Shown one piece after another: positions 24,799 to 64,000 of a stretch of 64,000 nt of DNA; the stretch's first letter is position 1, and every line of letters begins with the position of its first letter. Source of the stretch: Lachnoclostridium sp. Marseille-P6806 (GTDB lineage: Bacteria; Bacillota; Clostridia; Lachnospirales; Lachnospiraceae); NCBI RefSeq assembly GCF_900625025.1, contig NZ_LR130577.1, positions 1 through 64,000 on the forward strand. The letters are read 5' to 3'. The notes beneath the pieces are model-generated. The model was given only the letters and a program-made list of their open reading frames with translations, searched no databases and had not been told where the DNA came from. A program made the translations under genes and the position numbers.

Positions 24799-25105
24799 AA
24801 AAAAAGTCCCTCCTTTTCGCACTTTTTTTACAAGTACGACAAGCAGTGACTGTACACAGTTCCGTGTGTGTCATCGACCTTCCGATAAAAACGAAGCCGG
24901 AAAGGCTCCTTCGATGGTTTCGACTTCGCGACGCAGCACGCCGATTCTGCAGCTGTTTTGCAGATCCCGATTGTACAGTGACTTGCCGTCAGATTATTGA
25001 GGCGGTACCGGACCTCCCGGTACACTCCAGACATTCGCTCCACGGAATAACCCGTCATCCTGCGGATGACAGCAACCTCACGCTTCACAGCTATCATGTC
25101 ACAGC
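24799..25105 (-). promoter_or_regulatory. Long rpsJ (S10 operon) leader
   Basis: About 300 untranslated bases from the predicted start site near 25105 to the rpsJ ATG. A minus-strand frame of 89 codons exists, but its product resembles nothing and crosses the promoter. A leader of this size before rpsJ is a candidate for L4-type autoregulation, known in Gammaproteobacteria; not demonstrated here. Confidence 0.4.
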
Positions 25106-29710: not shown

Positions 29711-30916
29711 TTATGCCAGCTCCGCCCGGAGCTCCTCGACCTTGTCGAGCTTCTCCCACGGGAGCTCCACGTCGGTTCTTCCGAAATGCCCGTAGGCCGC
29801 CGTCGACTTGTAAATCGGACGGCGAAGATCGAGCATCCGGATGATGCCGGCCGGACGCAGATCGAAGTGCTTCCGGATGATCTCCGTGATGCGCTCGTCG
29901 GCGGTCTTTCCCGTCCCGAACGTATTGACATTGACCGAGGTCGGCTGCGCGACACCGATCGCGTAGGAGAGCTGAATTTCAAGACGGTCCGCATAGCCGG
30001 CCGCCACGAGGTTCTTCGCGACGTAGCGCGCCGCATAGGCCGCGGAGCGATCGACCTTGGTGCAGTCCTTTCCGGAGAACGCGCCGCCGCCGTGGCGTCC
30101 CGCTCCGCCATAGCTGTCCACAATGATCTTGCGTCCGGTCAGACCCGCATCCCCGTGCGGGCCGCCGATCACAAAGCGCCCGGTGGGATTGATATAGACC
30201 TTGGTATCCTGATCCACCATCGAGCCGTCCACCACGGCATCGATCACATATTTCCGTATATCCTCATGAATCTGTTCCTGTGTGGCCTTGTCGTCATGCT
30301 GCGTCGAAATCACGATGGCCTCGAGCCGCACCGGACAGTTCTCCGCATCATACTCGACTGAGACCTGAGACTTTCCGTCGGCGCGGAGATAGGGAAGCGT
30401 TCCGTTTTTTCTGACCTCCGTGAGCTTTCTCGTCAGCTTGTGCGCGAGATTGATCGAATAGGGCATATACTCCGGCGTCTCGTTGGTCGCATAACCGAAC
30501 ATCATACCCTGATCGCCCGCTCCGATCGCCTCGATCTCCTCGTCGGTCATGCGGTTCTCTCTCGCCTCAATAGCCCGGTCCACGCCCATGGCGATATCCG
30601 GAGACTGCTGATCCAGAGCGACAAAAACGGCGCAGGTATCACAGTCAAAGCCCTTGGACGAATCGTCGTAGCCGATCTCGCGGATCGTCTCGCGCACAAT
30701 CCTCTGATAATCGACCGCCGCCTTGGTTGTGATCTCGCCCGTCACCAGAACAAAGCCCGTGCAGGTCGCCGTCTCACAGGCGACGCGGCTCATGGGATCC
30801 TGCTCCATGCAGGCGTCAAGGATGGCGTCCGAAACCGCATCGCAGATCTTGTCCGGATGTCCCTCTGTCACCGATTCCGAAGTAAAAATATATCTCTCCA
30901 GAAAAAATTCCTCCAT
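29711..30916 (-). CDS. metK: S-adenosylmethionine synthetase
   Basis: 401 residues from the ATG at 30916. [39 protein letters not shown] and [23 protein letters not shown] are the three MAT signatures; it makes SAM from methionine and ATP. The start is odd: the only canonical codon that keeps the conserved N-terminus is an ATG that belongs to the dispersed repeat (copy at 30911-31107), with just a weak purine stretch before it. The nearest good site, GGAGG, overlaps that ATG and would suit the CTG at residue 6 instead. The gene is under a SAM-I riboswitch, so its own product shuts it off. Confidence 0.95.
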
Positions 30917-31107
30917 GCCGAAGCACTCTGTGCGAGTCACACGCCGCAAGCCCCCTGCGCCGGCGCGCAGTGTGCCGAGCCGCTCTGCGGCTCATGCCGT
31001 CCCGCTGCCTGACAGCATTTTTCGTTTACTGAATGGTCCGCGCAGGCGGTTTTGCGGCTGCGATAGGGGGCGATCTGGGCTTCGGTGCAGATCGCCCTGC
31101 ACAAAAC
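30911..31107. repeat. Dispersed structured repeat, copy 2 (in the metK leader)
   Basis: Begins CTCCATGCCGAAGC and contains GAGCCGC-TCT-GCGGCTC, GACAGCATTTTTCGTTTACTG, the CGCAGGCGGTTTTGCGG block and the stem GCGATCTG (31070-31077) with CAGATCGC (31088-31095) around a GGCTTCGGTG loop. The far end found in other copies is missing; here it stops at the SAM-riboswitch terminator. Transcription of metK passes through it from its right end to its left end. Confidence 0.85.
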
Positions 31108-31161: not shown

Positions 31162-31274
31162 CTCTTATTGTTCGACGCGCCTTTCGGCTCTCGCTCAGGT
31201 TGGCACCTTCCCATCTTGCAGGGGTTGCCGCGGCTTCACAGATCCTTTGTATCTCCACCGCCTCTGAATAAGAG
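31162..31274 (-). promoter_or_regulatory. SAM-I (S-box) riboswitch aptamer
   Basis: Read on the minus strand: P1 CTCTTATT (31274-31267) pairs with AATAAGAG (31169-31162). Between them are AGAGGCGGTGGAG, then GATCTGTGAAGCCGCGGCAACC, AAGGTGCCAACCTGAGCGAGAGC and the P4 region, the conserved core of SAM-I aptamers. High SAM stabilises the aptamer and lets the adjacent terminator form, stopping metK transcription. Confidence 0.93.
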
Positions 31275-44494: not shown

Positions 44495-45030
44495 ATCGCT
44501 TCTTCCTTTCTTTTTATGATCCGGAGCCCTCTGCCATCCCCGGGTCTTTCCGCCCCGGAGCAGTCCCGGCCCGCGCCTTATTTCTCACTTCTATGTTGAA
44601 CAGTATAAAAGCCAATTGTGTTCAAACTGTGTTCAATCCATTAGAAATCCGTGAAAAAAGCGCCGGTCTGCCGCAAGCAAAGCAGCAGACAGCGGAAAAC
44701 GCAAGATATCCGCCCACAAGCGCAGGCGTCGCTCCAAAAAACCGACGTTAAATATAACGGAATCAGGGGATAGACCATTTCACTGGAAATATCGGCAAAG
44801 CGAGGCACGCGCCGCAAAATCCGCGCAGGCGGTTTTGCGGCTGCAATCAGGGGCTATTTGGGCTTCGGCACAAATAGCTGTGTAAAAATCAGCGCATCGG
44901 CGTGATTTTTCACACTACCATTTCCGAAGAGGGAAAAATGAACCGATCGTTCATCCGCGACAATATATAAGCGTAAGAGCAACATCCTTATCGTCGACGA
45001 GAGGGGAAAGGGAGAAAACGATAACCTGCG
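44495..45030. other. Divergent gap between htrA and the sigma factor
   Basis: 536 bases with no gene. It contains a TTGAAC direct repeat near 44629-44640 on the minus strand close to a TATACT, and the deleted repeat copy 1. On the plus strand TGAACCGATCGTTCA (44939-44953) has 5-bp inverted arms and is followed by AATATATAA. I could not define a convincing pair of hexamers for the sigma gene. Confidence 0.4.
44798..44915. repeat. Dispersed structured repeat, copy 1 (internally deleted)
   Basis: Starts inside the element at AGCGAGGCACGCGCCGCAA, lacks about 100 bases of the middle, then continues CCGCGCAGGCGGTTTTGCGG, the stem GCTATTTG (44853-44860)/CAAATAGC (44871-44878) with loop GGCTTCGGCA, and the last hairpin TGTGTAAAAATCA/TGATTTTTCACAC. 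It lies upstream of the sigma factor gene. Confidence 0.8.
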
Positions 45031-57744: not shown

Positions 57745-57768
57745 TTCCGTGGTAAAATGACAGCAATC

Positions 57769-57990
57769 CTCCATGCCGAAGCACTTTTGTGCGAGGCACG
57801 CGCCACAATCGCCCAGCGCCAGCGCGCAGGGCTCCGAGCCGCTTTGCGGCTCGTGCCGTCCCTTGACCTGACAGCATTTTTCGTTTGCTGAAAGGTCCGC
57901 GCAGGCGATTTTGGGGCTGCGATCAGGGCTATTTGGGCTTCGGCACAAATAGCTGTGTAAAAATCAGCGCATCAGCGTGATTTTTCACAC
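57769..57990. repeat. Dispersed structured repeat, copy 3 (full length)
   Basis: 222 bases: CTCCATGCCGAAGC start, GCAC-TTTT-GTGC, GAGCCGC-TTT-GCGGCTC, GACAGCATTTTTCGTTTGCTG, CGCAGGCGATTTTGGGGCTGCG, the stem GCTATTTG (57928-57935)/CAAATAGC (57946-57953) with loop GGCTTCGGCA, then the last hairpin GTGTAAAAATCA/TGATTTTTCACAC. It lies between the ECF S gene and the lactonase gene, in the 5' leader of the latter. Confidence 0.88.
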
Positions 57991-58010
57991 TATTCTCCAT
58001 GGTGACGTTC

Positions 58011-62564: not shown

Positions 62565-63299
62565 TTACCTCTGTTTCCTCAGCCTTGCGGCCATGTAATC
62601 CGCAAGGAAATTGATCAGCAGCGTCAGCAGAAGAAGAATGACCGCGATGGCAAAGGCGACCTCCGTCTCTCCGCGTTCCCCCGCGTACACGTACAGCGCC
62701 ACCGTCAGGGTCGCCGATGATGACGTGAGCGCATTCCAGAAGCTGTTCAGGGCAAGGTCGAAGCCCGCCGTGAACAGCAGCGCCGCCGATTCCCCGACCA
62801 TGCGTCCCGCCGCAAGAATGCAGCCCGTGACAATGCCGTCCACCGCGCCGGGCAGAACGACGGTGCGTATCATGTGCCACTTCCCCGCACCCATGGCCAG
62901 CGTTCCCTCCCGATGCTGTATGAAAATCAGCATGCCCACAAGGCCGAAGATAATGGAGGGAATCCCGGTCAGCGTCTCCGCCGCAAATTCGATGAGCTCC
63001 ACGATTTTTCTGTTTTTTGCATATTCCGTCAGATAGACCGCCGCGCCCACGCTGACCGGCAGAGCGATCAGCATGGCCGTCACAATGATATAGAGCGTGT
63101 TCAGAAGATTCGGCAGTATGCCGATGCGGCTCTCCAGATAGCTGCTCTCCGTACTCAGAAGCTCCCACGTCAGATACGGGAGGCCGCGCCACAGAATATA
63201 GCCGATCAGAAACACCAGCAGTAATACCGTAACGGCGGCGCACAGGTGCAGTACCGTCGTCGCCGCGTTCCACAATCTGCGTCTCAGGCCTTTTTTCAT
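62565..63299 (-). CDS. pstA: Phosphate ABC transporter permease PstA
   Basis: 244 residues from the ATG at 63299. Six membrane helices; TLYIIVTAMLIALPVSVGAAVYLTEYA, ETLTGIPSIIFGLVGM and GCILAAGRMVGESAALLFTAG are PstA signatures (the last is the ATPase-coupling loop). Upstream codons in the same frame belong to repeat copy 4. The only nearby ribosome binding site, GGAG 11 bases before the ATG, is supplied by that repeat. Confidence 0.9.
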   Translation of the reverse strand: MKKGLRRRLWNAATTVLHLCAAVTVLLLVFLIGYILWRGLPYLTWELLSTESSYLESRIGILPNLLNTLYIIVTAMLIALPVSVGAAVYLTEYAKNRKIVELIEFAAETLTGIPSIIFGLVGMLIFIQHREGTLAMGAGKWHMIRTVVLPGAVDGIVTGCILAAGRMVGESAALLFTAGFDLALNSFWNALTSSSATLTVALYVYAGERGETEVAFAIAVILLLLTLLINFLADYMAARLRKQR

Positions 63300-63310
63300 G
63301 ACAGCGTAGT

Positions 63311-63537
63311 CTCCATGCCGAAGCGCTTTTTGCGAGGCGCGCACCGCAATCGCCCAGCGCCAGCGCGCAGGGCTCAGAGCCGCTTTGCGGCTCGTGCCGT
63401 CCCTCTACCTGACAGCATTCTTCGTTTGCTGAAAGGTCCGCACAAGCGATTTTGCGGCTGCGATCAGAGGCAATTTGGGCTTCGACACAAATTGCTGTGT
63501 GCAAAATCAGCGCATCAGCATCAGCGTGATTTTGTAT
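63311..63537. repeat. Dispersed structured repeat, copy 4 (between pstC and pstA)
   Basis: 227 bases with all parts: CTCCATGCCGAAGC, GAGCCGC-TTT-GCGGCTC, GACAGCATTCTTCGTTTGCTG, CGATTTTGCGGCTGCG, and the stem GCAATTTG (63470-63477)/CAAATTGC (63488-63495) with loop GGCTTCGACA. The last hairpin has a short insertion (CATCAG twice) and runs into the end of pstC, supplying its last codons. Confidence 0.88.
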
Positions 63538-64000
63538 CCCCTTTCCTCATGATGGCATTGGGCACCGCGTTCAGCAGCATGATGAACAGAAACAGCACCA
63601 GACCGATCGAAAACAGCGCGTTTCTCTGCAGGGAGCCGACGGCGGCATAGGACATTTCCGAGGCGATCGCCGTCGTCATGAAGCGGACGGATTTGAGCAA
63701 CTCCGGCATATTCGCCACATTTCCGGATACCATGATGATCGCCATCGCTTCTCCGACGGCACGTCCGACGCCCAGTACGATGGAGGCGGCGATTCCGCTG
63801 CGTGCCGCGGGAACCGATATTTTCAGATAGATTTCATACGGCGTCGCGCCGAGGGCCATGGAACCCTCCTCGTATTCTTTCGGCACAGCCTCCAGCGCCG
63901 AGACGGACACGCTGACGATGGACGGCAGAATCATGACCGCCAGAACCACGATCGCCGCCAGCAGCGTCGCGCCCGACGCCAGATGAAAGGCGCTCTGGAT
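63521..64000 (-). CDS. pstC: Phosphate ABC transporter permease PstC (3' part)
   Basis: 159 codons in the window; the N-terminal part is beyond the edge. ILPSIVSVSVSALEAVPKEYEEGSMALGATPYEIYLKI and GVGRAVGEAMAIIMVSGN are the PstC coupling loop and following helices. The last codons (DTKSR, stop) are encoded by repeat copy 4, so the natural C-terminus was replaced or trimmed. Confidence 0.9.
   Translation of the reverse strand: MQSAFHLASGATLLAAIVVLAVMILPSIVSVSVSALEAVPKEYEEGSMALGATPYEIYLKISVPAARSGIAASIVLGVGRAVGEAMAIIMVSGNVANMPELLKSVRFMTTAIASEMSYAAVGSLQRNALFSIGLVLFLFIMLLNAVPNAIMRKGDTKSR

Follow-up and report, generated by a model that had tools for sequence, protein, structure and literature searches.

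A small structured repeat that probably inserts between the SD and the start codon and brings its own SD

The window, by which we mean the whole 64,000-nt stretch of DNA analysed here, contains four copies of a structured repeat, and these raise the question of whether such a block regulates the gene that follows it or is a mobile element and, if it is mobile, how it comes to lie where it does. A sequence-only reading of this DNA had located the four copies and described a covarying stem under a conserved loop. All four are at those places, and a covariance model scores them far above chance (E values of 4.6e-34, 7.1e-32, 3.9e-26 and 4.2e-17, with 0.063 for the best of the remaining window matches), the model alignment having been made without the window copies and with 19 relatives from the same genome. 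The sense strand of the element is the complement of the strand given in that reading, and the copies and their surroundings are as follows.

30906..31107, minus strand: copy 1, long form with the D' hairpin missing, between the SAM riboswitch terminator and metK
30910..30914, minus strand: Shine-Dalgarno sequence (SD; GGAGG) given by copy 1 to metK
29711..30901, minus strand: metK, with CTG at the start position of its relatives and an in-frame ATG inside the element's SD end
31162..31274, minus strand: SAM riboswitch upstream of copy 1 (Rfam scan)
44780..44924, minus strand: copy 2, short form, without the SD end and part of the A' region
57764..57999, minus strand: copy 3, long form, complete, with no ORF of at least 60 aa starting beside its SD end
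57768..57772, minus strand: SD carried by the element in copy 3
57775..57782, minus strand: 3' strand of the pseudoknot in copy 3, GCTTCGGC in sense
57781..57792, minus strand: A' hairpin (GCAC/GTGC) of copy 3, poorly conserved
57836..57852, minus strand: GAGCCGC/GCGGCTC hairpin of the optional B block in copy 3
57928..57953, minus strand: C' hairpin of copy 3, the covarying stem of the sequence-only reading
57937..57944, minus strand: C' loop strand of the pseudoknot in copy 3, GCCGAAGC in sense
57955..57990, minus strand: D' hairpin of copy 3, the element's 5' end in sense
57995..57998, minus strand: SD-like GGAG flanking the D' side of copy 3
63306..63548, minus strand: copy 4, long form, between two ABC-permease genes, the upstream frame ending inside its D' hairpin
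62565..63299, minus strand: gene served by the SD of copy 4 (BPD_transp_1)

Two of the four window copies adjoin a start codon, that of metK and that of a permease gene; on our reading of the operon, the permease genes around copy 4 are pstC-like (upstream) and pstA-like, the latter being the one served. The SD end of copy 3 faces away from pgl (lactonase), and about 190 nt separate it from the next gene on that side, which encodes an ECF transporter component. At 30880-30949 the element's ATG (inside ATGGAGG) lies in frame, five codons upstream of the metK CTG; the insertion may therefore have supplied a new start codon. At 63521-63548 the element provides the stop codon of the pstC-like permease, whose frame continues into the D' hairpin. 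Elsewhere in the window, the Rfam scan places an S10-Clostridia ribosomal protein leader on the minus strand at 24983-25096.

The family is far larger than the four copies first counted. A BLAST search with copy 3 matched at least 58 stretches in the 3.13-Mb assembly of the same genome (G000; the best 40 of 186 candidates were scored). Outside the window these lie on both strands, so the single orientation reported earlier is true of the window and not of the genome; what is invariant is the orientation of a copy relative to its gene. Among 43 own copies examined, some of them partial and others decayed or truncated (35 genome stretches plus the window), 37 have a start codon and an open frame of at least 60 aa after the element's SD, and 28 of these 37 start codons lie 16-17 nt after CGGC. 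The earlier argument that copies sit in leaders read in both directions thus falls, since in those 37 copies the A end points at a start codon of the complementary strand and the copy beside pgl is exceptional.

The modular build of the element explains why copies vary in length. Its short form, with the order A-C-D in the direction of the sequence-only reading, is about 150 bp long including the SD and lacks a block of about 90 bp with the GAGCCGC hairpin; the long form carries this extra block, B, inserted into the middle hairpin. The statement that the GAGCCGC/GCGGCTC and GCAC/GTGC hairpins are kept needs qualifying on both counts, as the former belongs to a block absent from the short form and the latter is the poorest-kept part of the element (Watson-Crick in 63 of 99 lettered cells, 25 sequences), its 3' arm continuing into the partner strand of the C' loop. 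Three copies have a relative of B inside the D hairpin, instead of or besides the usual place, and the block orders found are A-B-C-D, A-C-D, A-B-C-B-D, A-C-B-D and A-B-D. The element usually measures 145-155 bp and reaches about 325 bp with extra blocks. Two related versions of B sit in two different hairpins (L004, L009 and L019 together with the long copies), and the block has the look of another small hairpin element lodged within the main one. Some copies that are otherwise normal have extra hairpins inserted into the C' loop or middle hairpin (L308 at 812-984, L128, L195 and L175), and there are tandem and nested copies joined at an SD.

The order of parts relative to the gene is constant. 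Read in sense, a host SD is followed by the D' hairpin, the C' hairpin, the middle hairpin, the A' region with the partner strand of the C' loop, the element's own SD, a few nucleotides and the start codon. Most copies end in sense in ...CGGCATGGAGGATT or ...CGGCATGGTGATT, with ATG about 2-4 nt further on; correspondingly, the A end usually has on its left a CAT, which on the complementary strand is a gene's start codon. The same holds for copies from named records: a start codon with a frame of at least 60 aa lies within -6 to +24 of the model end in 87 of the 103 copies (out of 110) that have enough downstream sequence, and 16 have no such frame. The start codon falls at exactly +1 in 51 of the 103, and random placements (n=5150) meet a start codon and frame in 29.5% of cases. 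The host genes checked are unrelated to each other: metK and the two ABC permeases in the window and, elsewhere, purC, ftsY, trpS, purine nucleoside phosphorylase, an RlmB/TrmH-like methyltransferase, pyrB, pyrI, pyrE, rnpM and a 3-hydroxybutyryl-CoA dehydrogenase-like protein. An SD-like purine stretch usually precedes the D' hairpin, and no insert was seen by eye in 21 gene starts of orthologues from more distant relatives (purC, trpS, pyrE, hbd, pyrB and metK; those in which the start motif was found among the orthologues fetched). Together these observations indicate that the element sits between the host SD and the start codon. The SD, the pseudoknot and this insertion site were missed by the sequence-only reading.

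The covarying stem stands as it was described, with the versions GCTATTTG/CAAATAGC, GCGATCTG/CAGATCGC and GCAATTTG/CAAATTGC. Beyond it, the C' loop can pair with the strand immediately preceding the element's SD, which makes a pseudoknot. Pairing was scored in an alignment (A1) of 25 sequences, namely 19 own short copies and six from G014, G007, G024 and G031; the truncated L030 and window copy 44780, the long copies and the divergent G009 and G010 were left out. With the pseudoknot included, 96.0% of cells pair, both sides change in 18 of 42 pairs, and 58 cells carry such changes (12.4 in shuffles). Sliding the partner by one column lowers pairing to about 41%, a comparison that favours the true register because the structure was read from one of the 25 sequences. 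Five loci near contig ends (L123, L125, L126, L132 and L138) were left out of a separate reading of copies.

A covariance model without the pseudoknot (R1) was then used to gather 110 copies from named records, by searching 100 of the at least 114 loci with the conserved D' core. When the pseudoknot was added afterwards, 95.6% of cells were paired, with changes on both sides in 31 of 42 pairs and in 580 cells, against 171.5 in shuffles. Five of the nine pseudoknot pairs show such changes, and the pseudoknot's two parts have 92.4% and 77.3% of their cells paired; this alignment was fitted to the nested helices and not to the pseudoknot, whose columns were taken from the commonest loop sequence. 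A perfect match of at least 8 nt between C' loop and 3' strand occurs in 48 of the 110 copies, and in 13.7% when partners are swapped; loop sequences with a perfect complement include CCGGAGCGT, TTTCTGAGCGA, CCGCAGGCAC and GTCGAAGCGC. G-U and A-C are about as scarce as each other in the nested helices (34 and 37 of 3246 cells), and in the pseudoknot G-U exceeds A-C (55 vs 32). As we read these alignments, the moving element may need its fold, and a settled copy may not be strongly kept as RNA. The outer D' stem varies strongly between otherwise like copies in several genomes and stays complementary (GTGTG/CACAC, GATTG/CAATC, GGGGG/CCCCC and others).

Filled and empty alleles were compared in G021 and G051, which, to judge from about 96% identity at two shared sites, are sister species. 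Twelve gene starts have a copy in one or the other genome, and nine of these were found in both: L307 is filled in both and eight differ. With the two further shared sites this gives 11 sites compared, 3 filled in both and 8 differing. Flank identity is 94-99.9% at seven of the differing sites and 84-86% at L305. Seven of the eight have a second allele that looks empty, and there the insert separates the purine stretch from the start codon; in one pair the empty allele reads GGAGGCATACATG and the filled one GGAGGCA, the element and GAAAGGCAAACATG. At the eighth, L314, one species retains no more than some 20 nt from the element's end, including the SD, so that this difference is a deletion. 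Some of the presence/absence differences could therefore be losses, one of the eight being such a deletion. L304a is less regular, with a weak host SD and, in the empty allele, a few bases beyond those of the filled one. The empty allele of L306 ends in an older remnant of the element, which implies that the second copy landed on an SD supplied by the first.

The spread of the element among related gut bacteria is patchy. Under strict filters, R1 found matches in 41 of 61 genomes sampled in the genus (E <=0.001) and in 7 of 146 sampled in the order (E <=1e-6; five genera, two families), the own genome counting in both; since G007, G014, G024, G031 and the own genome had fed R1, their matches arise partly by construction. 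Many of the matching genus genomes hold tens of copies (the best 50 per genome were scored). The D' core occurs in at least 114 stretches of GTDB genomes; among the matches listed, record titles are mostly Lachnospiraceae or Acetatifactor, the others being Clostridium, Bacillus, Eubacterium, Roseburia, Clostridiales and plain bacterium. G113 appears to hold young copies. Fourteen of its 20 loci (five at contig ends and L359 were left out) are 95.6% identical over the core and 36% identical in their left flanks, the core has sharp boundaries at AGTGTG and GGAATGGAGGAT, and in five cases a contig breaks off within a copy; near-identical copies, unrelated flanks and such contig ends make recent activity likely. 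Unrelated host genes, present and absent alleles, patchy spread and the G113 copies all bear out the earlier preference for a mobile intergenic repeat over one cis-regulator.

A viral or plasmid vehicle was considered and set aside. IMG/VR gave no exact match of the D' core and PLSDB plasmids no match of copy 3. Three unverified faecal records titled 'Bacteriophage sp.' hold whole copies (MT837007, MT836788 and MT838414; L400, L401 and L402), and as one such copy precedes what we read from its sequence as an enolase-like frame, these records are probably bacterial fragments.

Mobility and site choice are, in our assessment, well supported. Unrelated host genes and sites that differ between sister species point to a small mobile element that targets ribosome-binding sites and rebuilds them. 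We think it likely that this is a non-autonomous element that inserts in fixed orientation between an SD and its start codon and brings its own SD. The host's SD-like stretch stays on the 5' side, and the element's 3' SD, a few nucleotides from the start codon, again makes a correctly spaced ribosome-binding site. The mobilising machinery would recognise the folded strand, as single-stranded DNA or RNA, with the pseudoknot marking its 3' end, and the target would be chosen through its purine-rich SD. We give most weight to a route in which a recombinase would insert the folded single strand 3' of the SD, with the element's own SD end forming the second junction. Because translation is restored, insertions would be nearly harmless and could accumulate by the dozen in a genome, in front of usually essential genes as well. 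Thereafter selection would act mainly on the SD end, and the remainder would decay or be deleted.

How far do the junctions and the protein search agree with such a route? Left and right SDs resemble each other beyond chance in G056, where some copies are in tandem (7.55 vs 6.04 permuted; 0 of 5000 permutations reach it), weakly in G000 (p 0.04), and not above permuted values in 20 copies of other genomes (p 0.32); L030, L019b, truncated copies and the window copies except copy 3 were left out of this comparison. The first base after GAGG agrees in 6 of 15 G113 copies, and by eye the base after GG agrees in several G021/G051 copies. Protein models were run on 14 copy-rich and 12 copy-free genomes. 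Y1 matches occur in 9 of 14 and 6 of 12, TnpB in 6 of 14 and 6 of 12, and RVT_1 in 8 of 14 and 5 of 12, respectively. None of the Y1, TnpB zinc-ribbon and RVT_1 models matched in the copy-rich drafts G021, G051 and G056 (rated 87%, 96% and 80% complete); Y1 had no match in G000 or G202 either, the latter rated 100% complete, nor had RVT_1 in G014, G202 or G031. The single Y1 match of G113 lies in a 286-aa frame. Around Y1 genes, 11 stretches, some cut by contig ends, held no copy at E up to 1. The only reverse transcriptase domain in the own genome lies in a 480-aa frame (contig C4, 295370-295996), and the stretch around it holds no copy. Truncation on the D' side affects five long copies, and we considered it as a sign of reverse transcription; the flanks read pass into neighbouring coding or terminator-like sequence and lack an SD, which is better explained by deletion. 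Among these three families, the only ones searched, we find no consistent link to the element, and the mobiliser may have been lost after a burst or may belong to another family.

These data also bear on other explanations. A non-autonomous element of the IS200/IS605 type, or one driven by a RAYT, would have a Y1 transposase move a folded single strand 3' of an SD without target duplication, its own SD being the right cleavage site. The orientation fixed to a short 5' motif, the terminal hairpin, a 3' end resembling the target, the lack of a clear duplication in the young G113 copies and the Y1 gene of that genome all suit this account. However, Y1 is missing from five copy-rich genomes, is present in half of those without an R1 match and has no copy beside it in the stretches searched, and the G056 junctions argue for some duplication; we regard this route as unlikely. 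Junction likeness in G056 and G021/G051 would rather suit an ordinary MITE moved by a DDE transposase, with a short target duplication and a site preference produced by survival bias. Yet survival bias should leave copies at 3' and far-upstream intergenic positions, whereas 51 of the 103 copies from named records end at one exact distance from a start codon. Terminal inverted repeats were not seen by eye in the G113 consensus (AGTGTGAAAA vs TAATCCTCCATTCC, the reverse-complemented other end), nor is duplication apparent there, which makes a MITE improbable.

Two further accounts would have the element act in the mRNA. A cis-regulatory RNA, riboswitch-like or a protein-bound leader, could control translation of the next gene and have spread because regulation is useful; indeed, the element lies in the mRNA sense strand directly before the SD, the pseudoknot ends beside that SD, covariation is strong, and the pseudoknot favours G-U over A-C. 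But the host genes share no pathway, the nested stems show none of the strand preference of an RNA kept copy by copy, sister-species alleles look empty, orthologues lack the element, and copies decay, truncate and are patchy between species. We hold such a regulator to be quite unlikely. Still harder to credit is a leader ORF, coupled to the gene, that would be translated from the host SD. A start codon followed by AAA-AAT is common in the D' arm, and such a start occurs in 90 of 110 copies, but several copies have no start codon there and, in a count made without a shuffled control, 34 of the 90 frames stay open to the element's end and 56 close before it; a leader peptide is thus not supported. 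We likewise rejected an internal anti-SD guide (CCTC ahead of the A' hairpin), as by eye it does not covary with the SD across subfamilies.

If the likely reading of a mobile element that re-creates the ribosome-binding site is right, it departs from the usual view that small repeats survive where they do least harm, for this element seems to deal with the problem in an active way: it breaks into the few most sensitive bases of a gene and returns a working substitute, and so can sit before metK, pyrB, trpS and ftsY. Tentatively, and against our own leaning, it might even represent a mobile element of a new class whose defining trait is the target, one that homes to SDs, is recognised as a pseudoknotted single strand of RNA or DNA independently of Y1, TnpB and reverse transcriptase, and repairs the split site with its own SD. 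Confirmation would reveal a new targeting principle and a natural way to swap 5' leaders genome-wide without breaking genes. It would also be a warning for annotation, as many leaders in these gut bacteria would be insertions that conserved-structure searches flag as regulators. The G021/G051 pair and the young G113 copies make the mechanism directly testable.

The earlier statement that no named family has this sequence holds for Rfam on the copies scanned and for the open-licence PMC literature, where we found no description of the element. Rfam matched only SAM and S10-Clostridia in the window; copy 3 alone, ranked by E-value, gave RsmY (17.2 bits, gathering 57) and P33 (16.1, gathering 45), and 16 loci with other copies gave T-box, 6S and c-di-GMP-I, none overlapping placed copies. 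With no match at or above a gathering score on the copies scanned, membership of an Rfam family was rejected.

Riboswitches of the SAM-II and preQ1 type have a pseudoknot next to the SD; unlike them, the element is mobile, precedes many unrelated genes, keeps its SD outside the pseudoknot and matches nothing in Rfam. IS200/IS605 elements and the guide-RNA ends of TnpB combine terminal hairpins, insertion 3' of a short motif without target duplication, and a pseudoknotted 3' region. The element shares these traits, with mixed evidence on duplication (G113 fits, G056 argues for some), but it has no coding region, and Y1 and TnpB are missing from several copy-rich genomes. By analogy, an IS200/IS605-like route would be the nearest known one, but it fails on enzyme presence.

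BOX elements of Streptococcus pneumoniae resemble the present element in being dispersed, structured and modular, with a middle block of variable number, and are thought to be parasitic, one case involving riboswitches; terminal inverted repeats and target duplications are reported for them, and nothing in the parts of that account compared here confines them to the gap separating SD from start codon or gives them a replacement SD (PMC3049150). REP and REPIN sequences with their RAYTs are likewise short, high-copy hairpin repeats with a short motif directly 5' of the hairpin; as far as that description was compared, REPs start with GTAG- or GTGG-like motifs, measure about 20-40 nt and alternate in orientation in BIMEs, whereas our element is about 150 nt long, keeps one orientation to the gene and has no linked RAYT that we found (PMC2817692). 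Neither is tied to the SD in the descriptions compared, and on those descriptions BOX stands closest to the element in anatomy and REPs in being hairpins.
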